Below, one piece after another: positions 9,701 to 48,147 of a stretch of 64,000 bases of DNA. The notes under the pieces are model-generated. The model saw only the letters and a list, made by a program, of their open reading frames with translations. It made no database searches and had not been told where the DNA came from. This DNA comes from Aphrocallistes beatrix (Eukaryota > Porifera > Hexactinellida > Sceptrulophora > Aphrocallistidae), in the NCBI GenBank assembly GCA_963281255.1, contig OY725490.1, positions 1,612,001-1,676,000 on the forward strand, read 5' to 3'. The number at the start of each line of letters is the position of its first letter. The first letter of the stretch is position 1. The translations under genes and the position numbers were made by a program.

Positions 9701-10594
9701 ATTAATTGAAAATAAACCCTGCTTCACTTGCTTGCGCTGTGCAGCTAAATATATGGAATCTACTCATATTAAATCCCAGATCAACCATTGAGACTAGTCT
9801 GTAGCAGATTTTTAAAAATTTGTTAAAAGGTGTGAAAACATATACGTACATAATATTTTTTATTGCTTTGATAGGAATGGGTTGAGAATTCGGATGTTGG
9901 CAGGAGATGGATTAGTCGTTCTAATAATTCCTAGCACAAGCACTTATTGCTTACTCCTCTAGCTATCATCGGAGGTGCAATTGGAGGAATAATAGTGCTC
10001 TTAATCCTGATTATTCTGTTGCTAAGCTTACTCGGGTGTATTTATTTGTTAAAAAACAAAAACAAAGGTCAGTTCTATAGAAATATTATTTTATTATTAT
10101 GTATAGATTTAATTTATATTTCCTCTGTATTTCGAAAGTTCGAAAAATCCCAAACCATCTGACAAAATTAATCTCGGAGAGTAAGTTCAGTAGATCTAGG
10201 CTGCACTGATTCTAGCTAAATAGTTTTTATCCTTATTTTTCATTGAAATAATCAAAACTCCAAAATTTAACATTTTCTGTTTTCAAACTGATTCGTTATA
10301 CCACGAGTTCTCTCCAACAGATCAGAACACAGATATGAGTACATAGACATGAATGAAGTATCACAGATCAATCCTACTCCTTCAACACAAGAGCACTACT
10401 ACAGTGAGATGTCTTCTCTCCCTGAGAAACAACTCTCTGACTCAGTTCCTTCCAAGCAAGAAACTCCTTACTACACACCCATGTCTGCTCTAGCAGGTGA
10501 GCAGCTAACTGAACCTTCAACCAATCAGAACGCGTCCTCTACTCACATGTCTGCTCTGACTAATCAATCTCCTCTCTATGCCAACCTCAAATGA
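749..10594 (+). CDS. receptor R1: Ig-like/FN3 type I membrane protein, YxxM tail class
   Basis: Ten-exon gene model: A 749-815 (signal peptide starting MLLFFFDISM), B 2767-3129 (Ig-like, cysteines in LLCNG, MVCF and LGCHG), C 3670-3951 (FN3-like), D 4200-4267 and E 8536-8818 (second FN3-like domain, cysteines in QQCGQ and LSC), F 9235-9306 and G 9572-9661 (Pro/Ser/Thr stalk), H 9963-10067 (transmembrane, GGAIGG start), I 10135-10180, J 10321-10594 (tail, stop TGA). All junctions have GT donors and AG acceptors except exon I, whose acceptor reads CG. With exon I counted the total is 1650 nt, 549 residues. The D-E intron is 4.3 kb because of a satellite and nested Helitron-like elements. The domain calls rest on cysteine spacing and strand patterns and resemble Ig/FN3 cell-surface receptors; ligand and function are unknown. 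Without exon I the tail is out of frame, so this copy may be defective or differently spliced. Confidence 0.75.
1064..2067. mobile_element. inverted-repeat element split by a later hAT-like insertion
   Basis: The left end (AAGTCCTCTCTAATTGTCCAC, about 1067) and the right end (GTGGACAATTAAAGAGGACT, about 2043-2062) are inverted repeats. The interior is occupied by the separate element at 1138-1973. Lies in the R1 leader intron. Confidence 0.5.
1138..1973. mobile_element. hAT-like non-autonomous element with 8-bp target duplication
   Basis: Ends are CATAGGCGTAACGTT and AACGTTACGCCTATG. Direct 8-bp duplications AGTGTGTG flank it at 1130-1137 and 1974-1981, the length made by hAT transposases. 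The short open frames inside (for example 1294-1617) match no transposase and are probably not genes. Confidence 0.65.
2128..2598 (-). mobile_element. Helitron-like element, family II
   Basis: It begins with the GC-rich end CAAGCGCGCTTCGCTTGC and the hairpin GCGGACAC...GTGTCCGC, contains TGACGTCATAATTCCATGATG, and ends at TCAATCAATTCGTTACA. Further copies lie near 39724, 44028, 46563 and 53456. Family assignment is by shared end with the better-defined family I. Confidence 0.45.
4681..4881. repeat. 20-bp AT satellite, about 10 units (left part)
   Basis: Unit ATACATAATATAATATAAAT repeated ten times with two units carrying one change. The array resumes at 5662-5769 and 7297-7313 after transposon insertions. 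Open frames reading YIYIILCIF are artefacts of the repeat. Confidence 0.9.
4882..5661 (-). mobile_element. Helitron-like element E1, family I
   Basis: Read on the minus strand it starts TCTTATATATTAAAATGCTAGG and ends GCGAAGCGCGCTTG. It is flanked by A and T with no duplication; removing it rejoins the 20-bp satellite in perfect register. The interior holds no long coding frame. Confidence 0.65.
5662..5769. repeat. 20-bp AT satellite, middle part
   Basis: Continuation of the array at 4681, separated by E1 and followed by E2. Confidence 0.85.
5770..7296 (+). mobile_element. Helitron-like element E2, itself interrupted by E3
   Basis: Starts TCTTATATATTAAAATGCTAGG after A at 5769 and ends GCGCGCTTG before T at 7297. 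Removing it rejoins the satellite exactly. Its own sequence (5770-6131 plus 6886-7296) totals about 773 bp. It lies inverted to E1, giving a large palindrome centred near 5715. Confidence 0.65.
6132..6885 (-). mobile_element. Helitron-like element E3 nested inside E2
   Basis: Boundaries A|CAAGCGCGC...TATAAGA|T. Deleting it restores CATATAAATGATTGAATACTGC, the sequence found uninterrupted (in reverse) in E1 near 5281-5305. There is no target duplication. Confidence 0.65.
7314..8047 (+). mobile_element. Helitron-like element E4, family I
   Basis: Starts TCTTATATATTAAAATGCC and ends GCGCGCTTG, with A before and T after. Same family as E1-E3; slightly diverged. Confidence 0.6.
8155..8225 (+). 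repeat. possible tRNA-derived SINE head
   Basis: TGACTCATTGGTTAATGCG resembles a tRNA A box and D arm, and AGGTTCCTGCCGGCACC resembles a degenerate B box about 35 bases on. No full cloverleaf is evident, so a SINE relic is more likely than a working tRNA. Confidence 0.3.
10135..10180 (+). pseudogene. R1 juxtamembrane exon I with destroyed splice acceptor
   Basis: This aligns with intact exon I of R2 (15954-15999) and of the orphan cassette (27027-27072), both preceded by TTAG. Here the two acceptor bases at 10133-10134 read CG. The nearest AG (ending 10139) would give 42 nt instead of a phase 1 to phase 2 exon and throw exon J out of frame. The exon sequence itself is still open and the GTAAGT donor at 10181 is intact, which suggests a recent lesion, allele or sequencing error. 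Confidence 0.6.
10321..10594 (+). CDS. R1 cytoplasmic tail exon J (three YxxM, one YxN motif)
   Basis: The exon follows acceptor CCAACAG, enters in phase 2 and encodes about 90 residues to TGA. Visible tyrosine motifs are YIDM, YSEM, YTPM (the YxxM consensus bound by PI3-kinase p85 SH2 domains) and terminal YANLK (YxN, the Grb2-type SH2 consensus). The rest is Ser/Thr/Gln/Pro-rich and likely disordered. Near-identical exons occur at 27341-27614 and 36224-36476. The motif meaning is established for vertebrate receptors; its use here is inferred. Confidence 0.85.
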
Positions 10595-12729: not shown

Positions 12730-15700
12730 ATGCTCGTATATATTTATGGGATGCTCTTATACAGTTTGTTCATTCAATCTCAAAGTGAGTTCTCATTCAT
12801 TCTTTTGAAACATCATAACTACCAAATTTCAACCTCATTCCCGTCCAAAAGTGGAATTTCATAACAATTTTTCATTTTGACCTCTACACCGTGATTTACC
12901 ACAAATACTATTAATAGTATCAGTGGAAATTCAAAATATTCCTGTATGCACATTTAGTCTAATGAATAATTCCACTACATGAAATAGGAGGAGACCTCGA
13001 CTCTATAAATCTGAATAATTATAGAACTGACGCATAATTCTGTTTCTTGTACCAGGTAGTTCCATACTGCAGACTCCCACTGGCGCCTGTTTTGGAGACG
13101 AGATCGTTGTTCAGTGTAACCTGACTGTTCCAGATTCTATCAACAACAATTTCGTTTCGATTATAACCAACTTCATTGTCGGTAGTAGTGATGCTAGCAT
13201 CTCAGACACTGACATAAACTCTCTAACCTCCGTCCATGGAGGTATCAGCCTGACTCGATTGACTGCTTCAGCTGATGGTGGTACCATGAAGGTTGTGAGA
13301 GGAACCGTCACTCTTCTCTCGTACACTAACTCTGATGCAGGTCTCCGTCTAGGATGTACACATCAGTATTTCCTTACTGGTACATCTGGTCCTCGAGATA
13401 CTGAGACCATTACGACCCAGATACGACCTGCTGGTATGATATCTTTTGATTAATTTTATAACAATTTTGTCACTTTAATTAATTGATTAATTAGTAATGT
13501 CATGGCCTACTCAAATTAGGCCTCACAGTCGAATACAATTTAGACCAGGTTCCAAATTTCTAGGTCTCCCTTCCATCAGTTCTCCCAATGCAACCATTCA
13601 GAACTTGAACCCTTCTACTTGTGAAGGAACTCTCAGATTCAATCTAGCTGCTACGTCTGACAGAGACATAACCAGTTACTCCATCTTATTCAATGGTAGC
13701 AGTATAGCATCTAATCTACCGTCTTCTGACACAGAGTTTACACACAACACTCAATTCCTACTCAACACTAACTATCCAACTTCTATCATAGCTACTAACT
13801 GTGCTGGTAACTCTAATGATGGAGATGCTAGTGTACGAGTTAATGGTGAGACATTATTAAACTGAAACGAAATGTCAGTGCTCAGCGATTAATATATATT
13901 CCCTCTATTTAGGATACATACAGTCAGATATATCGTGTGCTCAATACGATCATGTGACTGGTGCACTTAAAATCGAGTGGGTAAGTTTGCTGGCTACTTG
14001 CTTCACTCTATGTGTAGTTATTTTTAGAACAACTAGCTCATAGTATAGGAGATGTCCTTAGGTCATGATTAGTGTATTCATACTTCTTCCCATCCTTTAA
14101 GACACTGAATGGAGATTAACTATCTGTCTGTCGACATTTTTATTTTCTTGCTTAAAATTTTCATATTAAATTTATTTAATCAAAGTATACGGTTAAAAAA
14201 CTGTTTTTCTCTATATTTGTTCATACACAAATAAGACCATTTATTGCTAGCTCTCTATTCTCAGACTCTAAACACTCCTTCACAACCAACTGGAGTTTCA
14301 GGAATTAACATTACTTATTCAGTTCGTGTAACATATTCTCATAGTAACGGAACAGTCACATACTTATTCACTGACACTTCTAACTTCAATCTTATTTATA
14401 CTGTAACGACATATGATGTACCTTTGACTCCTCACAACTTCACTAATCCTCAGGGAGTGGAGACTAACATAACAGCTCATGTACGAATACTACAGCAGTG
14501 TGGACAGGATTTGGTTGGAACAGAACTTAGCTGTAGTCTTAGATCAGGTATTATATAATCAAAGTGATATTTTTTACTACGTTACCAGTATTCAGATTAC
14601 TACTGAGTATACGGTATTATATATTTATAGTCAAATAGACCATAATATGTAAATCCATGCACTAATACGATTTTTACTGGAAGCGATAAGTTAGGGTATG
14701 TATGTCCAGAATTAGGCAGTGACACTCCGGCACCCTTGAACAATTTTAAATATCTACTAAAACCTGGATTTCTGCAAAAGCAAAAAATAAAGTTTTTTTC
14801 AGATAAGATGCGGTCAAATTATTTTTATGTAATTTCCTGACCAAAAGAAATTCAATGTTTCGGTAATTCTTAAGATAAGAATCTCTTCTAGTTTCTTCTC
14901 CTCCTGATATTCCCACTCCTTCTACTGTCCCATCAAGTTCTATTCCTCCATCTTCTAGTTCAAGTAATATTTACTTTTTTGAATTTGAGAAATTTTTCTG
15001 CAACTTGAATAGTAAACAATTCAATTTTTCGCTTTATAATTTTTTTTATTTTTGATGTTAAACTAAACATTTAGTCGAAAATATAAAGATTAGAAAACAA
15101 AATTAAAGCTAGAATCTGTGTTTATGAAAAAAGGTTGTATTACATTGTGAAAGCTCGGACGATTATTAATGCCATCACAGCTGATAATTTGTGATTGTAT
15201 GCCTGCTGGTCTTTATATTTAACTCTTTACGTTTATTATTTCATTTAGTATCAATTCCAATATCTCCAACTTCAGTTGCTACGAATAATCCTACTAATAT
15301 AAGTCCTCCTATCAGTTCTACTACTAGTCCTCCTAATCCTCCTGCTGCAGGACTTAATCCAGGTTGATTTGACATTTTATTAAAAACAAATGGATCATTT
15401 GTTAATTAGTAAACAAGTTTGCTTCGCTTGCTTGCGCTGTGCAGCTAAATATTCGGAATCTACTTCTATAAAACTCCAGGTCAACCATTGAGATTGAGAG
15501 CTAGTCTGTAGCAGATTTTTCAAATCTGTTAAAAGGCGTGAAAATATACACATACGTAATATTTGTATTGCTTAACTGTAGAATGTCCAGTATTTATATG
15601 GCTTCAGTGCCTTAGAAAATGACTGGGAGACATCCGCAAAATCGGGGACACTGTGTCCCCTGTGGGCATTCTACGGTTAAATAGTAATGGGTTGAGAATT

Positions 15701-18397
15701 CCGGATGTTGGCAGGAGATAGATTAGTCGTTCTAATAATTCCTAGCACAAGCATTCATTGTTTGCTCTTCTAGCTATCATTGGAGGTGCAGTAGGAGGAA
15801 TAATAACAATACTCTTAATCCTGTTTATTCTGTTGCTAAGCTTATTCGGGTGCATTTATTTGTCAAAAAAAACAAACAAAGGTCAGTTCTATAGAAATAT
15901 TATTTTATTCATTTATTATGTATAAATTGAATTTATATTTCCTCTGTATTTAGATACTTCACAAAATCACAAACCATCTGACAAAATGAATCTTGGAGAG
16001 TAAGTTCAGTAGATAGAGTCTGCACTGATTCTAGTTAAATATTTTTGATCCTTATTTTTCATTGAAATAAACAAAACAGAATTTAACATTTTCAGTTTTC
16101 AAATTGATTATTTAACTGTAGAATGCCCAGCATTTATATGGTTTCGCACTTTTATGGCTTCAGTGCCATAGAAAATGGCTGGGAGACATCCGCGATATCG
16201 GGGACACTGTGTCCCCTCTGGGCATTCTACGGTTAAACCACGAATATACAGATATATTCTCAGAATTTCACAATAATTTCGCACAAAAGTGGTTTGAATC
16301 CTTAAATACGATTCTATTTATAGCATTTATTCGTATTTTTATATCTTCCCATTAAAATGACTCAACTGAAATGAGTCAGCAAAATCCATTGTCCATCGAT
16401 GGGATTTATAGAAGACAAGCACGCTTCGCTTGCTTGCGCTGCGCGGCTTGCGGACACTACGTGTCCGCAGAGTCGCCCTACGGGCCCCTGGAGTCTCTAA
16501 TTCAAACATATTTTGGAATTTTTTTCCATTAAATAAATATTGTTAACAAAGGTCGACGAATAATTTCTCACATGGGTCCGAAAATATAATATTCAAAATC
16601 TACAGCACTAAAACCCCCATGTCAACCGTTGGAAGCTAGTTTCTCGCTTATTTTTGTCATTTGTATACTTTATGTATCTATTGTAAACAAAAGTAAACAA
16701 ATAATTTATCATATACATCTGAAAATATGATATTCGAAATCTACACCCCTGAAAACCCCATGTCACCCATTGGAAGCTAGTCTCTAGCATTATTTTCAAA
16801 ATTCATCAAATGGTGTGAAAATATGTATATAAAGGTGTGAAAATATGCAGATAATATTTTTTATAGCCATACACTATAATACATTTAAGATATCAAACAT
16901 AAGTTGTGGCTTTGAAGTATTAATAACAATGACGATCTATTTATTGTAGTGTCGTACTTGTACAATGATTTCTATTGTGATTGTGTAGTCATTTATTTTG
17001 TATAGAAAAGGTGCGAAAAATTGTTTTCCATTTTTTTTGCTGATGTGTGAAAATTTCGCTTAGATCTTAGAACTTAATCGTAGTAATACCATTTGACACC
17101 TACATGCAAATTTTCATATCTCTACGACTTTCCAATTCTTCAATCAATTCGGACAAACGAACAAACAAAACAAAAAAGATCCTAGCATTTTAATATATAA
17201 GATTTGTATTTTACGTTTTACTTGGGTCGTCTTCTTATTTGATATAACTTAATTTGTCAGTTAGAATCCTCGTAGAAAGAATAGACAATTAGTCACACTT
17301 GCCCCGAATGTTATTTGAGGATATCAGTATGTTCGAATATTCAGAAACTTAGTTTATTGCTATTCTTCCAGAATGATTGAAAACTTCATTTTCTAGGTTC
17401 GGAAGAAGATACGAAGGAAGAGTAAGCTAAGTTGACTAATTCATGAAAAATGGCAAAGAATTATGAATTATTCGAATAATTCATAATTCAAGCATGAATT
17501 AGTCAATCATAAGCGAACCAGCTGCTGTCAGCATTGACTGCCGCAGGATCGGAGGAATCTGCACAATAGTTCTACGCAGCTGCTGACACGACTCGCGCGA
17601 TGGGAGACGGAAGTCTCGGTCTGAAGTTGACTAATTCATGATTAATGAATAATTCGAATAATTTATAATTCAGGAATTATAAATTATTCGAATAATTCAG
17701 AATCCTGTAAAATGAATTATTCGAAAATCTATTCATATAATTTATCATATTTCCTTGTAAAAAACTTTCAATTTTGAATAATCCTTCTCAGGCTTGATGA
17801 ATTATGAATTATTCGAATTATTCATGAATTCGTGAATTAGTCAACTTAGAGAGTAAGTAATAATACTATATACGTATCTTACTAAGTATTTTGATGGAGA
17901 GTTTAAGACATAGTTTTTCCACTATATTTGCTCTTCTCTTTGACTGAATTTATGAGTTCTCTCTTTTGTCTAGACTGAAGTTGGACCAGGTAACAAATAT
18001 AAATAGAAAATGTTCTGGAACAATTACCCTATTGTCCCAATCAAAATTGGATAAAAATAGAATTTCACATCTGTGAATAATTTTTTTCCAATAACTGATG
18101 CGAAATTAGTTAAATGTTGATTGTTTCCCTCTCAAATCTGACTTTAAATATTCATACATGCTGTACACACATGTTACCTAGAATATCTATATATAATAAT
18201 CTCCAGATACAAATTTATAGAATACTATTGTGATATATTCTGTCAACTTCATTTCGGAAATTTTGACGCAATCTTTCGAGAATTCTATGATTAATTATTA
18301 ATTATTCTTTCCTTAGCCTAAGTCGCAAACATTGTATGCAGAGGTTTTTGTCTGTTTGGTCTGTGTTAAGGATGTTTTATCTCGTATAGTATTGTGA
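12730..18397 (+). CDS. receptor R2: Ig-like/FN3 type I membrane protein, truncated switch-motif tail
   Basis: Exons: A 12730-12784 (leader MLVYIYGMLLYSLF), B 13056-13433 (Ig-like, 126 residues, cysteines in ACFGD, VQCNL and LGCTH), C 13564-13845, D 13913-13980, E 14265-14547, F 14892-14963, G 15249-15362 (stalk), H 15774-15881 (TM), K 17397-17421, L 17974-17989, M 18317-18397 (stop TGA). The total is 1482 nt, 493 residues, with phases matching at every join. The tail keeps TLYAEV, a TxYxxV motif, then runs into unrelated residues because about 85 bp of the M exon present in R4 is missing. An unused-looking exon I lies at 15954-15999, with no exon J nearby. An AATAAA follows about 50 bases after the stop. 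Exon I could instead splice to exon J at 27341, giving 559 residues. Confidence 0.75.
15576..15676. mobile_element. TTAA-flanked MITE, 101 bp
   Basis: Inverted ends CTGTAGAATG...CATTCTACGG between TTAA duplications (15572-15575, 15677-15680), the signature of piggyBac-type insertion. Lies in the R2 intron before the TM exon. Confidence 0.65.
15954..15999 (+). CDS. R2 alternative juxtamembrane exon I
   Basis: Intact 46-nt exon, phase 1 in and phase 2 out, with TTAG acceptor and GTAAGT donor; encodes about 15 residues beginning DTSQNHKPSDK. It cannot be combined with exon K in frame, so it would need a J exon, the nearest being 27341. Confidence 0.55.
16116..16232. mobile_element. TTAA-flanked MITE, second copy, 117 bp
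   Basis: Ends CTGTAGAATGCCCAG and CTGGGCATTCTACGG, TTAA on both sides (16112-16115, 16233-16236). It sits in sequence matching the R1 I-J intron, where R2 alignment to the J exon stops. Confidence 0.65.
16416..17202 (-). mobile_element. Helitron-like element, family I
   Basis: On the minus strand TCTTATATATTAAAATGCTAGG...CGTGCTTG, flanked by A and T without duplication. Lies in the R2 intron between I and K. Confidence 0.6.
17427..17849. mobile_element. hAT-like inverted-repeat element duplicating a splice donor
   Basis: Ends CTAAGTTGAC and GTCAACTTAG, internal repeats of TGAATTATTCGAATAATTCA, and 8-bp duplications AGAGTAAG at 17419-17426 and 17850-17857. The duplicated bases include the GTAAG donor of R2 exon K. 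Confidence 0.65.
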
Positions 18398-32700: not shown

Positions 32701-35700
32701 AAACTTTCATCATCTCTTATTCAATGTTTTGTTATCAAATATTATTGTATTTGTTTATATCTACTTCCTTCTTAGGTTATGATTTGATAATGTCTGCAAA
32801 CTGTCTCAATTATAACAATATCTCGAATATGATCACTTTAAATTGGGTTCGTTAAACAATTTAAATATTTTCTAATCATTTCAGCCACGTCTATCAATAT
32901 TTTATTGGCCTAGATAGCTCTTAATATATAAGTATTTGTGTAACTATCCGAATTTCAAGGGACGATGCAAAGTTTATCAGATAATCGAGAGTTCGGATAT
33001 CAGGGTTGCACTGTACTAGACATTTACTTGGCATAAGTTGTGGTTTTAAATCCATGTGTAAGCCAATATGATATGCATTTATATTCCAGGACTTCTCTGC
33101 TCCTACTCCGACTACCACACTCCTGGTTGAGTACTCTCTCTCACTGAACTACTCACATACTCAGGGAAATGTTGCCAGAACATTCAGTGACAACATTCCA
33201 TTCTCTCTCCTCTCTTCTGATGCACGCACTTCCACTCAGTCTCTGACTCCTCACAACTTCGTTGGTAGTGCAGAGGTAGAGACTGACATCACAGCTGTTC
33301 TGAGAATAACTCAGCAGTGTGGACAGTCCTACTCTGGCACTCCAATATCTTGCTCCATCAGTTCAAGTATGAGATTGTTATGTGGTTGCTTATTTGTTTA
33401 GTTATACTATGTCTGAACTCTTCACGGTATTAACATGTTGTAATATCTGCATCTTAGAGGTACGTATCTGATAAGAGCCGCGAAGGAGAAACCTACAAAC
33501 ATTTTTTGGTGTGATCCTCCAAACTCCTGTTCTTTTCTCTCGTTACGCTCGCTTGAGATTCCAACCTAGATCTGATCCTGATTTTAACCTAAATCTTATT
33601 AGTTTATCTTTCTCAACCTGACAACTCTGTACAGACTTTTACTCTAATCCAATCAAGTTCTGAACCTTCTGCTAGTTCAAGTAAGATTTGTTCAATATTG
33701 ATCAGAAACTTGAGCAAAGTTATCTCATTATAAGAGTGAATAGGGGGAAATTGGTTTTAATTATATTTAGAAATACGTCTAATTCATTTTAAATAAATAA
33801 ATTTTAGAAAGTTTTAACAATACTATATATATATTTTATATAGCACCCATATTGCCAACTCCTGTTCCTACTCCTACTCCTCCTCTGACTCCTACCATGA
33901 TTGATCCTCTTCCAGCTTCCTTGGACACTGGTAAAATTCATTAATCGAACCGATACATTATAACCTGAAAATATATTAAATTTTATCGAAAAAAGTTAAT
34001 TTACTGAAACAACCATTCACAATAAACATTACATTGCATTCAAGACCAACAGATGATTTCATTTCTGAAAATTTATTATTGTGTGGGTGGAAAAATTTAT
34101 TTTAGTTCCAGGTCTGTGTCAGCAGCTCAAATTTCCCAGGTCAGCTTTTGACATTCAAAAAGTGAAACTAGTTTCAAATACTTTTTATCTAACAAAAGTG
34201 ACTTCAAAATTAGTTCAAAATACAAAATCTTGTTTTCCGTTTTGTGATATCATAGATTGATTCAATCATAGGAATTTATGATACAGAGGTAATACAAGTA
34301 TCAGAGGTCATATTCACTATAGTATTTAGTGCTTGGGCATATCTGAATTATTTCCAATCTATCTTGATTGTATAATTTATAGCAATCCCGAATATTAGTC
34401 AAAATAACTATTCATCGACTCGCACAGCCTTGTAGCTCAAAATAATTTCATGTTTTTAGTGGAGCTTCTAGTATATGAGATGCCATTTGTCATAATCGGT
34501 ATGCGACGTCCGTTCATGCATATCTACAAATGTCCGTCCGTCTACTCACTCCTGGAATTCTATTGGACCAAATTGCACAAAATTTGGACTATATATTTCT
34601 TATTTACAGATTTGAGGCCTGGGTCCAAATTATGAAATATTTTTCCACAAAAGGTGTCAAAATGTATTAGCCAATCAGAATCCAAGGATTTAACATTACA
34701 ATTAGCTTTCATTTTATTGATTAATAAGGATTATACGTAATTCAATGAGCATATACACTGCCTGGCCATAAGTATTCGAACACCACATTGATTTACACCG
34801 TAAATAGTACTAAAATTGGTCTACTCATAGAGGCCAATTCATTCAAACCACGACAACCACTGAAAATCTGATATCAAATTTAATATCTACAAACTAGAAT
34901 TACTCTGTTCAGAAGTTTTCTATTAATCAATTATGCCTCGAAGTGAATTTATATCGTTTGTGCCATTTTGATCCACTTGCTCTTATTTTATATAATGATA
35001 ATGGCAAGTGGAAAGTAGTACAGGGTGACACCGTTGGTAGGAATTTTGCTTTAGAAAGGATTAATATATGGAAAGCTTCTAAACCGAGTAATTCGAGTGT
35101 GCAGATTTCGAATTTGATGTTAGATCTTCAGTAAATGTCGTGGTTTGAATGAATTGACCATTTATGATGCAAAGCAATATGGTGTTCTAATACTTATGGC
35201 CAGGCAGTGTACAGTTATAATCACTCTCTAGCCTAATGTAAGGATTATTCATATTTTCACACCTTGCCTCAAAATGTTGTGGTGACTAATAAAATTGCAG
35301 GGAATAGTTATATCTCTTCCTACAGGTCTGATTGCAGGTGTTGTAGGAGGATTAGTTGGATTCTTAATCATTCTGGTTGTAATACTTGTTCTACTCGGAG
35401 TATGTGTTTATTGTTTGAAGAACAGAGACAGAAGTTAGTTGTATTCTGATGAAGATATTAGTTATGAAGTTTTGTAAATATTGGCATCTTTACTCACTAG
35501 AACCTAAACAGTCAGATAAAGTGAATATCGGAAAGTAAGTATTATTGATTATTAATCGATGCAAATTTCCATTTTCACTGACTAACTATGAGAAAAATGT
35601 AAAGAGAAATTTCTTCGTAATAGAGATTTATAATTGATATTTGTATGTCATGATAAATTCCATTGAATTCCAGACAATATTTGTTTCTAAAGCACATATG

Positions 35701-36476
35701 CTTATTTTGCTAATACGAAAATACAAATACAAATAAATATTGATATGTATCAAATAATTTAGCGTTTGCTTCACAATTACTAGTTATTTTAACCAACAAC
35801 GACTCGATGAGATTTAGTATTGTCAAAACATATGTCTTTGCAAATCATTTATGTGCTTCTCGTGATTATGAATTTATTAAAATACAGTCATGGTCGCTTA
35901 TTATGAACTAACCTCCAGGTCCCTATTTCATTGTTTAGATAGGATTTGTATTGAATCAAGTTCGTTTATAATGAAGTACTATCTCTATTATGAACAGATT
36001 TTTTTGTCCACTGGTAGTTCACAATAAGCGATCCTGACTATTTAGACATTTAAATCAAACACAAATACCAATACATGTTGTGCAAACGTAGTTAAATAAC
36101 TATTTTTAGATGATCAAATATTCATATTTGAACCCAACCTTGCTAGTTTAATAATTAGATAGTTATACATTATTCAAAACGATTGCATATAGTCTCCTTA
36201 ACTTGTCCCACTCCCTCCAACAGATCAGAACACAGATACGAGTACATAGATATTAATACAATGCCACAGAGCAATCCTACTCCTTCAACACAAGACCACT
36301 ACTACAGTGAGATGTCTTCTCTCCCTGACAAACAACTCTCTGAAACTCCTTACTACACACCCATGTCTGCTCTAGCAGGTGAGCAGCTAACTGAACCTTC
36401 AACCAATCAGAACGCGTCCTCTACACACATGTCTGCTCAGACTAAACAATCTCCTTTCTATGCCAACCTCAAATGA
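29767..36476 (+). CDS. receptor R3: Ig-like/FN3 type I membrane protein, YxxM tail class
   Basis: Exons: A 29767-29827 (leader MFLFSCGLILFSLF), B 30259-30621 (Ig-like, 121 residues, R1-type), C 32336-32614 (clear FN3, VKLSWLAPATDRTLTQFYLY), D 32776-32846, E 33090-33366, F 33603-33680, G 33844-33930 (Pro/Thr stalk), H 35326-35433 (TM, GLIAGVVGGLVGFLIILVVI), I 35501-35534, J 36224-36476. The sum is 1611 nt with all phases matching. Problem: codon 18 of the leader is TAA (29818-29820); by alignment with R2 a 6-nt gain near the end of the leader produced it. Either translation starts elsewhere or this copy is silent. All other exons are open. The D donor is GTTCGT, weaker than the GTAAGT of the paralogues. 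Confidence 0.75.
30774..32246. mobile_element. inverted-repeat element in R3 B-C intron
   Basis: Ends TGTAGGGTTCTATTTGGGGG and CCCCCAAATGGAACCCTACA, flanked by TGCAT on both sides. A 63-residue open frame at 31919-32110 inside has no recognisable domain. Confidence 0.5.
33931..35325 (+). other. R3 intron before the TM exon
   Basis: 1.4 kb intron. Its only recognisable content is the TA-flanked element at 34756-35209. Confidence 0.6.
34756..35209. mobile_element. Tc1-type non-autonomous element, 454 bp
   Basis: Ends CACTGCCTGGCCATAAGTAT and ATACTTATGGCCAGGCAGTG with TA on both sides, typical Tc1 termini. The 63-residue frame inside is not a transposase that can be recognised. Confidence 0.7.
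36224..36476 (+). CDS. R3 cytoplasmic tail exon J
   Basis: Same exon as in R1 and the cassette, but YIDM is YIDI here and seven residues are missing before the YTPM motif. YSEM, YTPM and terminal YANLK are kept. Acceptor CCAACAG, stop TGA. Confidence 0.85.
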
Positions 36477-36931: not shown

Positions 36932-39900
36932 ATGAATTTACCCAACTATTTCCAGGGACTTCTTCTCTTCACTCAGCTTAGTAGATATCTCTATGGTAAG
37001 TACGATATAATTAAAACTACTACATAAGATAGATTGATAATTGGGGAAAATTGTGCTAAATACTATTGACTCCTCAGTCTCGGATTCTGAATAACATTTT
37101 TCCCATAGTACACTGGAGAGTTCTACTAATAAACGCATTTCTTTTCACCATTATTATTAATACTCTATCTTTTGTTTAATTTCTTCATAGGGCATGTCTA
37201 GAAATTATCAATCTATTCACATAGGCTCATGTACTGAAATCAAAGATACAATGGTGACACAGAGTCCACCTCAAGCGTGTAAAAATGAGACTATCACTGT
37301 CAGCTGTGTACTGACTCTACCTAATGCTGAAGATACTTTCGAACCCTATGCTGGTGATTTCAAACCTAGATTCATTATTGGACTAATAAATGAAACGATA
37401 TTAGAAAGTACTATTAATAAAAACGATGCTGAAAATTTCGATCTTTCTCGATTCACGGCTGCTTCCAATGCTGGAAATAGCACAGAGGTGTCAGGATCAA
37501 TCACTCTCCACCGTTACATCAAAGACACTGATAAAGGTCTACGCATGGGATGTGGTAATGGTTATAAAGTTGGTGGAAAAGGTGATCTTATCCAATTCAA
37601 TAAAACACTCAACCTGACACAAGCTGGTATGTTTGCTTATTACACGAATACTGTTTGTGTTTTTTACTTGAAAGAGGTGATCATTCTTTGTCGATCGGTG
37701 CCGGAAGAATGAGACAATTGTGAGAACTAGCAAAGTTAGGATAGTTGGAAGGTTAGATTGTTACGATTTTCCAAAAGTGATTTAAGTGATTCAGAATAGA
37801 TATATTTAACATTTAGCATCTGAGCGAGGCATTAATTTTCATGTTAGAGATAGCTAACTGAATGCAAATACAGTCGAGCCTGCTATAACGACCACTCTAT
37901 ATAACGGTCGCCTGTCTATAGCGGTCACCAATGAACAGTCCCGTCCGAAATTCCATAATATTGATCCTGTGTATAGCGGTCACTGCTCAACGCGGCCAGC
38001 GGCCACCCTTTTGTAGTTCCTTACTGACCCTAAAACTGTGTATAACGGCCATCATCTGTCTATAACGACCACTACCTATCTACAACGGCCATCACCTTTT
38101 TCACTTATTTATGTGTTTATTACAGGACCTGTTACGAACGATAAACAAGTTTCATGTAATTACTTCAAGTAATGGATTTCTAAAAACTATTGCACTACAT
38201 TGATACCTTTTGGGAATTAAGACAATCACTTGTATATAACGGTTACCTATGTACAATGGCCAATTTTATCCAGTCTCTTGGGTGGCCGTTATATACAGAG
38301 GTTTCATTTTAGTGCAGCTCCTATAGGAAGATGCCCTTATGGCATGGACATAATATCTCGTCCGTCCGTATATATTATGTACAAGCGCGCTTCGTTTGCT
38401 TGCGCTGCGCGGCTTGCAGACACTGCGTATCCGCAGAGTCGCCCTGCGGGCGCCTGGAATTACTAAATCTAAACTATTTTGGGAAATCTTTTCCTATATA
38501 TATATATTGTAAACAAAAGTCAACGAACAATTTCTCATATGGATCCGAAAATGTAATATTTGAAATCTACACCCCTGAAAATCCCATATCAACCGTTGGA
38601 AGCTAGTCTCCAGCATATTTTTCAAAATTCGCCAAATGGTGTGAAATATGTATATAAAGATGTGAAAATACGCCATAATCTTTTTTATTGGTATACATTA
38701 TGATACAATTAGGATATCAAACATAAGTTGTGGCTTTGAACTATTAATAACAATGACAATGTATTGTAGTGCGTACAATGATTTCCATTGTGATAGTGTA
38801 GTCATCTATTTAGTATAGAAAAGGTGTGAAAAATTGTTATCCATTTTTTGCAGAGGTGTGAAGATTTCGCTTAGATCTTTGAACTTAATCGTAGTAATAT
38901 CATTTGACACCTACATGCCAATTTTCATATCTCTAAGACTTCCCAATTCTTCAATCAATTCGGACAAACATACACACCCACAAAAAAAATTCTAGCATTT
39001 TAATATATAAGATGTAGGTGGGGCACATGTTTTGCCCCAAGCTTGATTAGGCATAAAAATTTTTATATTCAAACAATCTTAGTTATTATGGTCTTTAGAG
39101 ATTATAATTCCAATATTCTCAATGATTTTAAAAGATTTTTCGAGTCTAAAACCTGGAACTGTGTTTTGTTTGGTGAGTTTTGTGGAGAAAATATGTGTTC
39201 TAACACGCAGCAAATCAGGAATTAGGGCCTACTGCTTTTCAAATTATCTCTCTAGAGTCTTCATTTTAGGACAAATCTGCTCTCACATTTTCCCCAAACA
39301 CTCTAAATTTGTAGAAATATAGGATTTTTTATCAGTTGATACTGAGAACCATTTGGATCAGATTTTTTGGTGATGTGAAAAAAGTGCCATTTTGGGTGAT
39401 AATTTGAAATCATGAAATTATAACTTTATCTCGTTTCTGAATATTAATTCAATGGATTTGTGAAATATTTTCATGGTGAATAAAAGGTATCTGGTGCTAA
39501 ATTGTAATGGAATATCGATTATTGAAACATGTTTTTACAGAAGCAGTGGCCCTGATTCTCGATTTTGCAGTGTCTCCACAAAACTCACCATACAAAACAC
39601 AGTTCTAGGGCTTAGACTCTAACAGTTCAATTTTACCAAATTTGGCATGTAGGATCTCTATTGTATAGATGTTCACCCTCAACATTTTTTCGCAAATTCT
39701 CATCACTTCCGTTTTTTATAAGTATAAGCGCGCTTCGCTTGCTTTCGCTGCGCGGGTGGCGGACACTTTGTGTCCGCCGGACGCGTCCTTTGGGCGCCTG
39801 TGGTCACCATTGATTAATTATAAGGGAAATAACATTTCTAAATACGTTTGTCCTACTGTTATAATCGATATTGCACGAAAAATCAAAATTTATCAATTTT

Positions 39901-42900
39901 ACAATTTTTGATGAAATGATGATGTCATAACAAAGTGATGAGCCATCATTTTTTGCATCATATGTGAGGTATGTTAGTATACAGATTTTATTAAAATTTC
40001 AGCCTTCTATCTCCTATAATGGCTGAGTTATGCTCGAATAACTGTATTGCTTAACTTTTAAAAATGTGACAATGACGTCATAATTCCATGATGAGTCGAT
40101 ATTTTGCTCTGAGCTCAGAACTTAGTGGAGCCATAGCCAAAAGACTCCCACATGCCAAAAATTAGCTCTCTGCTCCTAGCAGTTTCTTCAATCAATTCGT
40201 TACAAAAGGCGAAAAAGGTGATGGCCTTATTGACAGTTGATGACCGTTATACACAGTTTTAGGGTCAGTCAGGGACTACAAACGGGTGGCCGCTGGCCGT
40301 ATTGAGCAGGTGACCGCTATACACAGGTTCAATATTATGGAATTTCAGACGGGACTGTTCATTGGTGACCGCTATAGACAGGTGACCATTATATAAAGTG
40401 TCCGTTATAGCAGGTTCGACTGTATATATATATACACACACACATTAATCGAGTTTTAATAGTAAGGATATATTCATATTTTATTTTTCCTCATACTTCT
40501 TGGGGCTGCACTCTCTGTCTGTCGACCTACATTTTATAATAATAGGGACTATTCCTAACTTAATCGACATATACAAGTTAGAATCACTATATATCCTAAT
40601 GTAAGAATTATCAATATTTTCACCCCTTGATTCACGTGACAAATTTACTGACCAATGAAATTTTAAGATTCTAATTTAACAGCAGTAATCAATATAATTG
40701 ATCAATATGGAATAGACCTAACTCAATATCTTATACCGTATTTCCCTGAATAAGCGCCGGGGCTTGAATAAGCGCCGGTTTGAATAACGCCGGGTCTAAA
40801 GGGTGAGCGAAATAAATAAGCGCCGGGGCTTGAATAGGCTCGAATAAGTGCCGGGCTCGAATAAGCGTCTGATGCGGGGCATTTTAGTTCTCTGAACATC
40901 ATATCAAACTAGTATTCTCGGTGGTGGCATAGGTACAAGTACCTTTTGAACCATTACATTATCGTTTTTTAATAGAACTAACATTCTCAGTAGTGACAAA
41001 AATAAAAGTGCCAGCCAATGTAGTAAACAAAAAAAAAGAGTCAAAATAGCGAATGAAAAAAATAAGCGCCGGGTCTAAAGGGTGCACGAAATAAATAAGC
41101 GCCCGGGCGCTTATTCGAAGCAATACGGTATATTAAAGCTCTAGGATTTTTTTTTGTTTCTTTGTCCGAATTGATTGAAGAACTGGCAAGTCGTACGATC
41201 AATCAATTCGATCGTAAAATAACTTTTAACGACAGGGACTGTAATTGATTATTTAAGTATAATAATCTTAAGCAATGTGAACTTTGTGTATTCAAATTGA
41301 GCTTACATTCAGGATTAGTTGACTTAAGACTTAATACGCAGTAAATTATATTTATCACGAAACAAAATTTCTGCTACAATTCTGATTTCATTATTGTAAC
41401 CGTAGACAAATGACAATCCAGCGTACTTAGCATAAAACAAGAATGCGACGTATTGTTCTCTAATATCCGCAAGCGCCCACTGGGTAAATCTGCAGACACA
41501 CAGTGTCTGCAAGCCGCGCAGCGAAAGCAAGCGAAGCGCGCTTGTACATAATTAAACGTCAGAGTCACTATCTAAACTTGAAATTTGATTAACTGGAATG
41601 AGAAAATTATTTACAAACATGACTTTGAGACTCAGCTCACTAAATCATCATTCCATTCTTAACCTGAAATCTGCTGATTGGCTGGCTGGTAAATAATTAC
41701 AATGCAATTATATCAATTCTATATTTCTAAAAGAATTCACACCATAATTCTAAAAAAAACACCTTTTCACAAAAGATGTCTATTAGAAATTGTAACAGGG
41801 ACAAAACATGGGTGCAGCTTAAACCACATATTAGAATGCAGGATGGTAGGGTATGACTGAAGAAGGAGAGTACCCCTAGCAATTTGCGTGCCCGACTTCC
41901 GTACTCTGAAGGTGTTATACTGCATATTTTTCAATGGGTTAGGTCCAGCAGTCCAGGTCTCCGTTTCCAAAGGCCAGACACTTTCAGGACAATTTACGCT
42001 GATGTGGTGTTTTGCTTGAGATTGAAAATTTTTATCTTAAGCGCCGTCCGAAGACTGGTACTCGTGGTATCAAAATTTTGCGGGATAGAAGATCGAGTGA
42101 GCCTTGATTGGGATATTTTCCATTGCCTGGAAGAAATACCTATGTTTTGAGACAATTAAAAGTTGGAGTAAAAGACTAAATCCAGTTGTAGGGTGTAAAG
42201 GAGTAAAATCATTAACTTTGCATGCACAATTATTTGTAGTTTTAGTGAGGTATGATTAGTATTTATTGAATGCTCCTGTATTGTTGTGATAGAATACAAA
42301 TAAAATACCTTGATCAAAACAAATGTTTCAGCACATATCGAAAAATATATTGTATGCTATCATTTGAATTAGTATGTAGCAAATATGTCGTCGAAATCTT
42401 TTTTATTAAATTTCTAAATTATTAGATCCTCCTTCCATCAGTTCTCCCATTTCAACCATTCAGAACTTCAACCCTTCTACTTGTGAAGGAACTCTCAGAT
42501 TCAATCTAACTACTACGTCTGACAAAAAGATAGAAAGTTACTCCATCTTATTCAATGGTAGCAGTATAGCATCTAATATACCGTCTTCTGACACAGAGTT
42601 TATATACAACACTACATCCCTCCTACTCAACACTAACTATCCAACTTCTATCATAGCTACTAGCTGTGCTGGTGACTCTAATGATGGAGATGCTAGTGTT
42701 AGAGTTAATGGTGAGTTTAAACACTGATGAAATGTCAGTTTGTAGTTGCTATTAAAATCTTTACAGTCGTGTTTTGCTGACCAGCTTTTAAGGTATGTAT
42801 CCGGTCTATTTAGGATACATACAGTCAGATGTATCGTGTGCTCAATACAATACTCTGACTGGTAGACTCACAATTAGTTGGGTAAGTTCAGTTGCTGCTT

Positions 42901-44952
42901 CAGTCTATGTGAAGCTATTTTTAGAAAATTGACCAATAAATAACCCAATGTATAGCGACTCTCAATTTAAAATATATTTGAACGACGAAATAAATATTTA
43001 CAACTCAATCCAAGTACATACTTACATTATTATAGACGAATGTAATACATTTTCACATCTGGGACGTCGCCAAGGGGGATGCAAAGGGGCTAATTAAAGC
43101 CCAATCCTCCATTAAGAATCTCTCCCCCCCAAGCAATGCCCCACTTGTAAAAAATTATTTCTACTTCCTTATATATACGTACTTGTGGAGGAATAAAGAG
43201 GATTCACTCATTCAGTTTTATTTCTCAAATTATTTTGGAAAATTAACTACATATATATATACAGGGTGACCCATAAGTTCTGTTATAGCTTCATTAGGTA
43301 TAAAATTTCTTATACTCAAACGATCTTAGTTATTATGGTCTTTAAAGATTGCAATTCGAATAGCCTCAATGATTTTAAAAGATTTTTCGATTCTATGACT
43401 TAGAAATGTGTTTTGCATGGTGAGTTTTGAGAAGAAAAAATGTGTCCTGGCCCGCAGCGAAAATCGTGAATCAGGGCCCACTGCTTCTGTAAAAAATGTC
43501 TTCATAATCGATGTCCCATGACGATTTAGCACCAGGTACCTTTCTTCGCCATAAAAAGATTTCATGAATCCACTGAATTCGTTATCAGAAACGAGAAAAA
43601 GTTATTCAGTCGCAGTTCAAATTAGGTACATTTTGCAAAATTCCCCCAAATGGTCTTCAAAATGCACTGATCTGAACATCTTATATCTCTACAAATTTAG
43701 AGTTCGCGAGGGAAATGTGTGAGCTAATTTTTCCTAGAATTTGAAGACTCTGGGAAGATAACTTGAAAAGCAGTGGGCCCTGATTCACGATTTTCGCTGC
43801 GGGCCAGGACACATTTTTTCTTCTCAAAACTCACCATGCAAAACACATTTCTAAGTCATAGAATCGAAAAATCTTTTAAAATCATTGAGGATATTCGAAT
43901 TACAATCTCTAAGGACCATAATAACTAAGATCGTTTGAGTATAAGAAATTTTATACCTAATGAAGCTATAACAGAACTTATGGGTCACCCTGTATATATA
44001 TATATATTTACCACTCTATAATGACTACAAGCGCACTTCGTTTGCTTGCGCTGCGCGGCTGGCGGACACTTTGTGTCCGCCGGAGGCGCCCTTTGGGCGC
44101 CTGTGGTCACCAATTATTAATTATACGGGAAATGACATATCTAAATACGTCTGACCTACTCTTATTATCGATATCGCACGAAAAATAACCAAATTTATAA
44201 AATTTTAAAATTCTGATGAGTAATGATGACGTCATAACAGAGTGATGAGTAATCATATTTGGATGAGAGTTGTACCATATGTGAAATATGTTAGTATACA
44301 GATTCTATTAAAATTTCAGCCTTCTATCTCCTATAATAGCTGAGTTATGCTCGAATTACTGTATTGCTTAACTTTTAAAAATGTGACAATGACGTCATAA
44401 TTCCATGATGAGTCGATATTTTGCTCTGAGCTCAGAACTTACTGGAGCCATAGCCAAAAAACCCCCACATGCCAAAAATCAGCTTTCTGTGACTGGCAGT
44501 TTCTTCAATCAATTCGTTACAGATATATATATATACACACAAACATTAATCGAGTTTTAATAGTAAGGATGGTTACATAGTGATAACATAAGGTACTATT
44601 TTTCATATTTGTTCTGACACAAATAATATAATTTATTTCTAACATAAATGTATTTTAATGTTTTCTATTTTTAGACTCTAAACACTACTTCACAACCAAC
44701 TGGAGTTTCAGGAATTAACATTACTTATTCAGTTAATGTAACATATTCTCATAGTAGCTCATTCAATTACACTTCTAACTTAACTCTTGTTTCTACTGTA
44801 ACGACATATGATGTACTTTTAACTCCTCACAACTTCAATAATCTTCAGGGAGTAGAGACTAACATAACAGCTCATGTGAGAATAATACAGCAGTGTGGAC
44901 AGGATTTGGTTGGAACAGAACTTAGCTGTACTCCTAGATCAGGTACGCGTAT

Positions 44953-45021
<69 letters not shown>

Positions 45022-48000
45022 TTAGTCGCTGATATGATTGAAAATCTTCACGAATAAGAATGAATTTCCTATATTGGGTTTCTATTTTAGATCCGTTCAA
45101 ACCAGCTTTTTATGCAATTGACGAGAACAATGAAGAGAAAAACGGATAAAATTTGTCTGTACTGTTACATTGTTTACTTCGAGTGTCAGTGATAGTATAA
45201 CCGTTTCAGACATGTGCATTGATTTTCAGAACTCTTTGAATTTCTAGATGTGAATATAAATCATCTTTTTAAAAAAAAGATTTGAGATAATAATCTCTTC
45301 TAGTTACTCCTCCTCCTAATATTCCTTCTTCACCTCCTGCCACACCAAGTTCTATTCCCTCCTCTTCTAGCTCATGTAAGAGTTACATTTAATATATTTG
45401 CAATGTTAAGTAAAATGTTAAAAAGATAATATCATAGCCTACTCTACACTATTTAATATGAAAGATCAAATTAATAAAAGCAATAATTTGTGATATTATT
45501 AATGAAAAAAGGTTATATTACGTTGTCAAAGATCAGATTATTAATTTTATCGCAGCTTATAATTTTGTAATACAATACGATGTCAATAATATTTGACTCT
45601 TTACGTTTAATACGTTACTAGCATCAATTCCAATCTCCCCACTTCCTGCAGTTACTACGAATATTCCTACTATCAGTCCTACTCCTGCTACCAGTTCTAT
45701 TCCTACTACCAGTTCTATTCCTACTACCAGTTCTATTCCTACTACCAGTTCTATTCCTACTACCAGTTCTATTCCTACTACCAGTTCTATTCCTACTACC
45801 AGTCCTACTCGTACTATCAGTTCTATTCCTACTACCAGTTCTATTCCTGCTACCAGTTCTATTCCTACTACCAGTTCTATTCCTATTACCAGTTCTATTC
45901 CTGCTATCAGTTCTATTCCTACTACCAGTTCTACTCGTACTATCAGTTCTATTCCTACTACCAGTCCCAGTTTTGCTAGTACTATCAGTCCAACTCATAC
46001 TATCAATCCTACTCATACTATCAATCCTACTCATACTATCAATCCTACTCATACTATCAATCCTACTCATACTATCAATCCTACTCATACTATCAATCCT
46101 ACTCATACTATCAGTACTACTCCTACTATCGGTACTACTAATTCTCCAGATCCAGGACATAATTCAGGTTGGTTTTTATTAGAAAACAAATGAATAATTT
46201 GTTAGTTAGAAAAACTAGCCTACTTCGCGGCTAGCAAACACTTCGTGGGCGCCTGATATTATATTTTCAAATTTATTTTTTAAATATACGCTCATTATAC
46301 AAAAATGGAGGCTAAATTGTAAACTTTGCAAATAGTTAGTGATTGAAATTCCTGTTATTTATCAATATAAATTCGAAAATAGGATATTCAGAATCTGCAC
46401 CACTAGAACCGCAGGTCAACTGTTAAAAGCTGGTCTCTTGCATATTTTCCAAAATTCGTCAAAAAGATAATATTTTTTGCCATACACTGGAATAAATCCT
46501 TACTATTAAAACTCGATTCATATTTGTGTAGTATACATGTATGTATATGTATATACGGTATCTCTGTAACGAATTGATTGAAGAAACTGACAGGCACAGC
46601 ACAGAAAGCTGATTTATGGCAATAGGAGTCTTTTGGCATTGGCTCCACTAAGTTCTTACCTCAGACGAAAATGTCGACTCATCATGGAATTATGAGTCAT
46701 TGTCACCTTTTTTTTAGAATTAGAAATTTCAGTTTTTCGACTATAACTCAGCCATTTTAGGTTATAGAAGTGATGACTCATCACTCTGTTATGACGTCAT
46801 CACTACGCATCAAAAATTGACAAATTTAATGATTTTTCGAGTGATATCGATTAAAACAGTAAGACAGACGTGTTTAGTGATGTTATCTACCTTAATCAGT
46901 GTGAACCTAGGCCTCTGAAGGACGCCTCTGGCGGATACAAAGTGTCCGCCAGCCGCGTAGCGCAAAAAATCGAAGCGGCGCTTGTTAACATAGTAATGAA
47001 TTGAGAATTCCGGATGTTGGTAGGAGATGAATTAGTCGTTCTAATAATTCCTATCGCTAGCATTTATCGTTTACTCTTCTAGCTATCATCGGAGGTTCAA
47101 TAGGAGGAATAACACTGTTCTTAATTCTGTTTACCTTGTTTTGTGGCTCACTCGGGTCTATTTGTTTCTTGAAGTACACAAACAAAGGTCAGTTCTCTGT
47201 AGGAAAATTTTCATTAAAAGATAGAAATACTTGTACTACACACTTGGGCGCGAATATAAGAAATATTATATCTGTTCACAGGTACCAATTCATAATAACT
47301 ATCAAGTTTCGGGAAATTTAGCATTACAGCTAAATACTTAAGAATTGATTAATATAGCAAGATCTAAAATAGATGAAAACATATTGTTATATTTACACTC
47401 TGATCAACTGAGAATAGAAGCACCTTGGATGCCATTAAAGTGAAAAAATAAAAAAGTTGATGTTATTTGTGGATATTTGAATAATTAAAAACTTCACTTC
47501 TAGGTTTAAAGGGCAAGAAAAAAGGGTGAGTAATAATATCAAATTATCCTACTAAGTAAAATGATGAAATGATTAGATCATATCGAGGCTTTCTTACTAT
47601 ATTCGCTTTTCTCTTTGACTGAATTTATGAGTTCTCTCTTTTGTGTAGATTCGAATCGAATCAGGTAACAAATAGCAAATATTCTGGGATGATTAATTTC
47701 TTCTCTCAGACCAAATTGGAGAAAAATAGAATTTCACATCTGTAAATAATTGTTTAATCTGTTGGGAAATTAGTTAAATGTTGATTGTTCCACTATCAAG
47801 TCTTTCTGATTTTAAATTATTCTCACAGCTATACACTGGGTGCTAGTATATACACTATATCCCATAATCATCTTCGACTGATAAAATATTATGATGTAGT
47901 CTGTAGACTTTATCTAGGAAATATTAACGCAATCTTTGATGATTCTATCATTAATTACTTGTATTATTAATTATTTCTTTAGTATCCATCGAAAACATTG

Positions 48001-48147
48001 TATGCAGAGCTTAAATTTGTCGATTTACCTGGAATACAGAAACCTGCAGCAATTCCAAAGACACATTACGTTGAAATAGACCATATCAGTACAATAAACA
48101 ATATTTACTATCCTATCTCTGATGGAACTGAAGAAACTTTATTCTAG
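36932..48147 (+). CDS. receptor R4: Ig-like/FN3 with long mucin-like stalk and switch-motif tail
   Basis: Exons: A 36932-36995, B 37225-37626 (Ig-like; 37246 is an alternative start), C 42426-42710, D 42814-42881, E 44675-44942, F 45304-45375, G 45622-46167, H 47083-47187 (TM), K 47504-47525 (basic, GLKGKKK), L 47649-47664, M 47983-48147 (stop TAG). The total is 2013 nt, 670 residues, all joins in phase, no lesion seen. The stalk exon G is 182 residues, against 30 to 38 in R1 and R2. The tail has TLYAEL, THYVEI and IYYPI. Such TxYxx(V/I) motifs recruit SH2 proteins in vertebrate SLAM/PD-1 type receptors; use here is inferred. The leader is weakly hydrophobic (NYFQGLLLFTQL). Best candidate for a working receptor in the window. 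Confidence 0.78.
37871..38312. mobile_element. TA-flanked pogo/Tigger-like element
   Basis: Left end CAGTCGAGCCTGCTATAACG after TA; repeated TATAACGGCCA motifs; right end less certain near GGCCGTTATATACAGAGG. Same family as 52177-52593 and the half copy ending at 40422. Confidence 0.5.
38382..39012 (-). mobile_element. Helitron-like element, family I
   Basis: Boundaries A|CAAGCGCGC...TATATAAGA|T with no duplication, GC-rich hairpins at one end; 631 bp. Confidence 0.6.
40735..41128. mobile_element. inverted-repeat element with AATAAGCGCCGG repeats
   Basis: Termini ACCGTATTTCCCTGAATAAG and CTTATTCGAAGCAATACGGT; several AATAAGCGCCGGG units inside each arm. Confidence 0.55.
43262..43991. mobile_element. 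TA-flanked element with about 210-bp inverted repeats
   Basis: Starts CAGGGTGACCCATAAGTTCT and ends AGAACTTATGGGTCACCCTG, TA both sides, 730 bp. A second copy is at 48523-49292. Confidence 0.8.
44028..44521 (-). mobile_element. Helitron-like element, family II
   Basis: GC-rich end CAAGCGCACTTCGTTTGC, hairpin GGCGGACAC...GTGTCCGCC, then the family II body ending ATCAATTCGTTACAGA. Confidence 0.45.
44955..45017. repeat. (TA)n(GA)n microsatellite
   Basis: About 30 bases of TA followed by about 30 of GA, just after the R4 exon E donor. Confidence 0.9.
45622..46167 (+). repeat. R4 stalk exon G: coding 18-bp minisatellite
   Basis: A single 546-nt exon, open throughout in the receptor frame. It encodes two six-residue repeats: imperfect copies of PTTSSI first, then seven consecutive PTHTIN/PTHTIS units from about 46003. 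The product is a Pro/Thr/Ser mucin-like spacer. The opposite strand also has an open frame, which is a by-product of the repeat. Confidence 0.85.
46563..46984 (+). mobile_element. Helitron-like element, family II
   Basis: Starts TCTGTAACGAATTGATTGAAG and ends with the GC-rich module at GCGCTTG before T. Lies in the R4 intron before the TM exon. Confidence 0.45.
47983..48147 (+). CDS. R4 cytoplasmic tail exon M (ITSM-like motifs)
   Basis: Enters in phase 0 after TCTTTAG and encodes 54 residues to TAG. Motifs in order: TLYAEL, THYVEI (exact TxYxxI) and NIYYPI. An AATAAA follows about 65 bases later. R2 exon M aligns at its start and in the 3' UTR but lacks the middle. Confidence 0.8.
   Translation, partial: YPSKTLYAELKFVDLPGIQKPAAIPKTHYVEIDHISTINNIYYPISDGTEETLF

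Follow-up and report, generated by a model that had tools for sequence, protein, structure and literature searches.

Related ectodomains with two classes of tyrosine-motif tail in a probable paired-receptor gene cluster of a sponge

The window analysed here, a stretch of 64,000 nucleotides from Aphrocallistes beatrix (G000:C3:1612001-1676000; the assembly comprises 100.5 Mb in 28 contigs), contains a family of multi-exon receptor genes on the plus strand, in which related ectodomains are joined to two kinds of cytoplasmic tail. The first kind, encoded by exon J, carries YxxM motifs and a YANL motif; the second, encoded by exon M, carries a pair of motifs resembling the immunoreceptor tyrosine-based inhibitory motif (ITIM) and switch motif (ITSM). 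We consider it likely that these genes form a paired-receptor family in which opposing tails have been swapped among ectodomains.

Results

Genes A, D and E and the ectodomain of gene B (Table 1) have a common architecture: an Ig-like domain, two FN3-like domains (the second divided between two exons), a Ser/Thr/Pro stalk and a transmembrane (TM) segment, preceded by a signal peptide except in gene D, for which no signal-peptide exon was found (one weak candidate at 28855 was not accepted). Gene E is complete, with 11 exons encoding 670 amino acids in one open frame and all junctions GT-AG and in phase; an 18-nt tandem repeat at window positions 45590-46189 (25 overlapping register copies) lengthens its stalk. 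In gene A, the FN3-2a exon was located by eye rather than by scripted splicing, and the GT-AG sites and phases fit given an acceptor 13 nt upstream of the usual J acceptor (10321). The J copy of gene A might be taken to mark a broken gene, since the linker acceptor normally used has been lost; we rejected this because the upstream J acceptor restores the frame. A sequence-only reading of the same DNA had proposed that related ectodomains bear both kinds of tail, and the gene models bear this out: between the FN3 exons of genes E and B the protein identity is 81% and 78%, and a 186-nt stretch with the gene E TM exon matches the DNA of gene A at 83% identity.

The same reading had described a J tail with YIDM, YSEM, YTPM and YANL, which is exact for gene A and cassette C; the gene D copy has YIDI in the first position and two YxxM. 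Three YxxM are present in two of the three window J copies, not in all three as had been claimed, and in two of the four long-form copies found. The accompanying argument that the motifs are not accidental survives for the triple motif, since composition shuffles give P ∼0.001 for three YxxM in an 89-residue tail; the corresponding values are 0.033 for two YxxM in the gene D copy and 0.15 for the single YxxM of a short J tail, which is not significant alone. Judged from sequence, conservation makes the stronger case against chance than these counts do. For exon M, TLYAEL and THYVEI do lie together in the gene E exon, but TLYAEV is located elsewhere, in a second, truncated M exon that belongs to gene B.

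Gene B is an in-frame chimera of a J-type linker and an M tail. From its TM exon and linker, a 16-nt exon leads in frame to the truncated M exon, with GT-AG introns and a single frame of 500 amino acids, and the product ends ...LGELKLDQPKSQTLYAEVFVCLVCVKDVLSRIVL-stop. The TLYAEV motif, at 18329, falls in a stretch (17850-18352) with 72% identity over 528 aligned bases to the gene E tail region, and the alignment places a deletion, relative to gene E, over the segment that would hold the second motif. If this M exon is skipped, the gene B ectodomain is in frame with cassette C. Because the ectodomain is in phase both with its M exon and with the downstream TM-linker-J cassette, both tail types lie downstream of one ectodomain, and the locus perhaps switches tails by alternative splicing. 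Two simpler models were rejected: cassette C as an orphan, because the B ectodomain splices to it in phase, and gene B as a plain J gene, because of the in-frame M exon that it carries.

Outside the window, an M tail exon at C3:1606932-1607057 (+) lies 1.6 kb downstream of a J-tail gene and is a possible alternative tail. A scan found no TM exon between the two, a weak negative given that a similar scan missed the TM exon of gene E.

Table 1. Family genes, cassettes and tail exons in the window (positions in window coordinates; SP, signal peptide)
Feature	Positions	Strand	Exons or motifs
Gene A, J tail	749..10594	+	SP 749-815, Ig-like 2767-3129, FN3-1 3670-3951, FN3-2a 4200-4267, FN3-2b 8536-8818, stalk 9235-9306 and 9572-9661, TM 9963-10067, tail exon J 10308-10594
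Exon J, gene A copy	10321..10594	+	YIDM, YSEM, YTPM, YANLK-stop
Gene B, own shortened M tail	12730..18397	+	SP 12730-12784, Ig-like 13056-13433, FN3-1 13564-13845, FN3-2a 13913-13980, FN3-2b 14265-14547, stalk 14892-14963 and 15249-15362, TM 15774-15881, J-type linker 15954-15999, 16-nt exon 17974-17989, M exon 18317-18397
Truncated M exon, gene B (PKSQTLYAEV...)	18317..18397	+	First motif kept, second lost
Cassette C	26705..27614	+	Second TM 26705-26812, linker 27027-27072, exon J 27341-27614
Exon J, cassette C copy	27341..27614	+	YIDM, YSEM, YTPM, YANLK
Gene D, J tail	30259..36476	+	Ig-like 30259-30621, FN3-1 32336-32614, FN3-2a 32776-32846, FN3-2b 33090-33366, stalk 33844-33930, TM 35326-35433, linker 35501-35534, J 36224-36476
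Exon J, gene D copy	36224..36476	+	YIDI, YSEM, YTPM, YANLK
Gene E, M tail	36932..48147	+	SP 36932-36995, Ig-like 37225-37626, FN3-1 42426-42710, FN3-2a 42814-42881, FN3-2b 44675-44942, stalk 45304-45375, repeat stalk 45622-46167, TM 47083-47187, mini-exons 47504-47525 and 47649-47664, M 47983-48147
Exon M, gene E	47983..48147	+	TLYAEL, then THYVEI 22 residues on
Further family gene, ectodomain exons	52748..56268	+	Ig-like, FN3-1, FN3-2b

With the gene B FN3 exon as query, the genome yielded at least 78 matches, 73 of them on C3 at 712-1793 kb. J tails were found at 33 places, 32 on C3 and one on C6, comprising 29 of short form (31 match rows minus two that are second pieces of another row) and four of long form. 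Read individually, these are 24 complete short tails, the four long tails, one tail with six YVPM, and four that are partial or degenerate. M tails were found at 15 places, all on C3 (11 match rows, gene E and three weaker matches), of which 12 were read; the truncated gene B exon stands outside this count, and a match to the gene E tail on C11 (E 0.48) was taken as chance. With 33 J and 15 M places, both tails thus recur over a cluster of roughly a megabase. The tail with six YVPM, at C3:1449340-1449684 (-), repeats a unit like SPTQQQSQEYVPMS so that the motif occurs six times in 114 residues; DYVPM is the pY751 site of PDGFR-beta.

To follow tail type across the family, we built a tree of the FN3-1 domain from 29 genes (23 J and 6 M; the gene B/C row was scored J, its M exon having been found later). 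Tail type needs six changes on this tree, at least three of which are required by branches with strong support. With shuffled labels the average is 5.6 changes, and the observed labels show no more clustering than that, in a comparison of low power with six M rows. Both tails occur in three of the four ectodomain subtypes, the fourth (5 rows) being J only, and the paired-receptor layout proposed from the window is in this way supported outside it. The six M genes are 93, 84, 90, 81, 89 and 89% identical to their nearest J genes; M_1225625 has a slightly closer relative in another M gene (83%) than in any J gene. Exon order was taken from tblastn matches within C3:1542-1766 kb, plus full models for the window genes; among the pairs elsewhere, which were matched by position and strand, several about 4-8 kb apart (J_1003012, J_1025659, J_1055175, J_C6, M_1225625, M_1246740 and M_1456155) are less certain. 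At the level of sequence, these comparisons show repeated re-joining of ectodomain modules with tail modules.

Conservation of the J motifs was evaluated in the 24 complete short tails; the five omitted short places are the four partial or degenerate ones and the one with the repeat, and at least one omitted place, at 1037358, is without the first motif. The first Tyr of YExI is present in 24/24 tails and the second in 21/24; the YxxM Tyr is present in 22, the Met in 23, and both in 21. YANLK is found in all 24, with eight minority synonymous codons. The check attached to the sequence-only reading, whether motif residues evolve faster than their surroundings, gave the opposite result: over 276 pairs, the nonsynonymous (dN) and synonymous (dS) rates are 0.041 and 0.133 for motif codons vs 0.140 and 0.225 for the other tail codons, and, set against randomly chosen columns, the 12 motif columns have P 0.003.

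In the 12 M tails read, both tyrosines and the Thr at -2 of the second are invariant, the Thr being encoded by ACC, ACT, ACG and ACA and the Tyr by both of its codons. The spacing between the tyrosines is 23 residues in 11 tails and 22 in gene E. The first site fits (S/I/V/L)xYxx(I/V/L) in 9/12 tails, and the second fits TxYxx(V/I), the SLAM-type switch motif, in the same proportion. The mean dS is 0.85 (57/66 pairs usable), and the overall dN/dS is 0.56. These values bear on the proposal that the motifs are accidental and the array a functionless relic of gene duplication. The J tails have a mean dS of 0.198, which means that their resemblance is in large part recent; broken copies occur, and one Ig exon has an internal stop. 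The M tails, however, are old and yet keep Y, T and Y throughout the 12 read, and genes A, B, D and E have open multi-exon frames. We give this proposal hardly any credence.

We also surveyed the genome for candidate effectors. On C8, SH2, SH2 and protein-tyrosine-phosphatase (PTP) domains follow in that order, and the first 123 residues match SHP-2 (PTPN11) at 1.4e-73 and SHP-1 (PTPN6) at 1.6e-54. On C17 there are two neighbouring single-exon Grb2-like genes, and the one searched aligns to Grb2 along its full length (6e-80). By these matches the genome encodes Grb2 and an SHP-2-like phosphatase. It probably also encodes p85, for which there are two candidates with SH2-iSH2-SH2 order (C12:2710325-2711449 and C2:796661-799625).

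The nature of the phosphatase bears on the sign of the M tail. SHP-2 orthologs often promote Ras signalling, the gene found here is closest to SHP-2, and all three effectors are able to serve receptor tyrosine kinases; both tails might then be positive docking platforms, the M tail recruiting SHP-2 positively in the manner of growth-factor or Gab-type signalling, and the classes would differ in pathway rather than in sign. We regard this as unlikely. The 12 read tails strictly keep the ITIM and ITSM, the distance between them and the Thr of the ITSM, which is the pattern of inhibitory receptors, and a single shared output would leave separate tails on common ectodomains with little point.

A further alternative makes the genes relatives of receptor tyrosine kinases or of adhesion receptors that lack a kinase and act in development, not in recognition. 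FN3-rich ectodomains with PI3K and Grb2 docking sites suit adhesion or growth receptors, and the genome has many protein-kinase matches. Within C3 700-1800 kb, however, no kinase match is listed among the first-look candidates scored (143/413, E up to 1e-10). The tandem array, the exon re-joining and an FN3-2 dN/dS of 1.14 (7 copies, significance not computed) would also be unusual for developmental receptors, and we think this alternative quite improbable. The other ectodomain values, which like that for FN3-2 are pairwise NG86 estimates and descriptive, are 0.60 (8 copies) and 0.86 (5 copies) for two groups of Ig-like exons and 0.65 (7 copies) for FN3-1.

Several other features were observed in the window and the genome. 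The long last intron of gene B/C contains an open reading frame (ORF) at 22029-22586 (+) that by eye resembles a Tc1/mariner-type transposase, and another at 20681-21753 (-) that by eye resembles a glycosyltransferase-like protein. The TM and tail of the family gene at 52748..56268 were not located by a TM scan, which is uninformative, having missed gene E's TM too. Window stretches 49839-50138 and 58684-58983 are duplicates with 95% identity, the former overlapped by an ORF at 49899-50459 (-) with a long SPTSPTS-type low-complexity run. Three FN3 matches have identical scores on two contigs (C3:1687-1696 kb and C4:2023-2032 kb), pointing either to a segmental duplication of recent date or to a duplicate in the assembly. 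Tyrosine-phosphatase exon matches lie inside the cluster at C3:1014690-1016085 (-), between two J-tail places, and dense arrays of tyrosine-phosphatase domains occur at C15:65-276 kb and C2:51-86 kb, with many neighbouring pairs in one open frame. The mitochondrial COX1 on C28 was read with AGA as Ser and TGA as Trp: of 16 AGA codons, those at residues 33, 100, 261, 321 and 453 fall on conserved Ser (by eye, against solved COX1), ATA fits Ile and AAA fits Lys. A code with AGR as Ser and ATA as Ile is that of glass sponges, and COX1 suggests such a sponge, other lineages not being excluded by a tree.

Discussion

In the paired-receptor reading, each gene would encode a type I membrane protein with a signal peptide, a divergent Ig-like domain, two FN3-like domains, a Ser/Thr/Pro stalk, a TM segment and a short kinase-less tail, and ligand binding would lead to phosphorylation of the tail tyrosines by a separate kinase. 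The class J tail (YEYIDxDEM ... YxxM ... YANLK-stop) would then bind the SH2 domains of p85 through YxxM and Grb2 through YANL, and act as a costimulatory, CD28/DAP10-like tail. The class M tail (mostly (L/V)xYx(E/D)(I/L), then TxYx(E/D/N)(I/L) 23 residues on) would bind the tandem SH2 pair of the SHP-2-like enzyme and be inhibitory, in the manner of Siglecs and PD-1, giving the two classes putatively opposite signs. Duplication and intron recombination would re-join the modules, and binding domains that are close relatives would thereby report with one sign or the other. A role in recognition of self/non-self or of microbes, that is in allorecognition or immunity, may follow.

A number of observations weigh against this reading. 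The phosphatase found is nearest SHP-2, which is often positive in signalling. The iSH2 matches score 28.2 and 25 bits, under the Pfam cut-off of 31.5, and a control archaeon also gave a below-cut-off match, so the p85 assignment rests on the SH2-iSH2-SH2 order. Pfam gave fn3 below its cut-off and no Ig match on the ectodomain exons; the Ig-like domain has three invariant Cys and a GxxIxVxC-like pattern (by eye), and its PDB profile matches are mixed and weak (JAML, PVR and TCR V-beta), the best being a nisin immunity protein. Four of the 33 J places are partial or degenerate, and two of the three unread M places match the first 29 query residues only and may be without the second motif, like the gene B M exon. 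The four J Tyr columns alone are not significant (P 0.13), and the J tails are young, with an overall dN/dS of 0.59. Outside C3:1542-1766 kb, finally, ectodomains and tails are paired by position and strand only.

We offer a broader proposal more tentatively, as a possibility that falls short of being the probable one: the megabase array would be a sponge histocompatibility or immune-receptor complex, in which germline ectodomains are re-issued with a go (PI3K/Grb2) or stop (SHP) tail as TM-tail cassettes are exchanged by recombination within introns; at loci like B/C, alternative splicing might perhaps do the same. Glass sponges are syncytial, and, if the histocompatibility reading is true, fusion in a syncytial animal makes recognition critical; self/non-self decisions by ITIM/ITSM vs YxxM would then be present in one of the earliest animal branches. 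The large complex supplies concrete candidates, with PI3K/Grb2 and ITIM-ITSM tails on common ectodomains, and points to an origin, or a second origin, of paired go/stop tyrosine signalling beyond cnidarians and chordates; a mechanism of tail switching is visible at a single locus, gene B.

It is instructive to compare the family with known receptors, beginning with the go/stop immune receptors of vertebrates, whose layout it resembles. Siglecs, CEACAM and PD-1 are Ig-type receptors with an ITIM and then an ITSM roughly two dozen residues apart, some of them with activating twins, and the M tails are like these in motif order and spacing. The SLAM family has a SAP partner and V-C2 Ig ectodomains, compared with the Ig-like (no Pfam Ig match) and two FN3-like domains here. 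Vertebrate activating twins usually pair with DAP12 or FcR-gamma through a charged TM segment, whereas the TM cores of A, B, C, D and E have zero charged residues (by eye, in these five window helices) and the receptor itself carries the putative activating motif in its tail. The J tails resemble CD28, ICOS and DAP10 and the PI3K sites of PDGFR-beta, where YxxM stands near a Grb2-type YxN; the ectodomains are unrelated as far as we know.

Among sponges, the titles and abstract openings searched, a scope outside which most subscription papers and preprints fall, named no sponge allorecognition or ITIM-bearing receptor family. In a term search of the Oopsacas minuta genome paper, immunoglobulin has two hits and allorecognition none (PMC10280926).

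In overall layout, the family is closest to the Hydractinia Alr and Botryllus schlosseri fester co-receptor (FcoR) genes, compared by description, not by sequence, from the portions of the sources available. Hydractinia Alr comprises 41 clustered Ig-superfamily genes (PMC11999971) with motifs of the ITIM type or the activating counterpart (ITAM) type (PMC12065747); the ectodomains of this cnidarian family are V-set and I-set, and the accessible sections mention no YxxM tail class. The Botryllus FcoR genes, at the fuhc locus, are likewise clustered, with an ITIM or an activating tyrosine motif on related proteins and, at some loci, the motif swapped via alternative splicing (PMC12065747). Their activating motif, as described in those sections, is a hemITAM or tyrosine core motif, in contrast to the putatively activating YxxM and YANL in cis in the sponge, and their ectodomains, in a different phylum, are Ig/Sushi rather than Ig-like/FN3-like.

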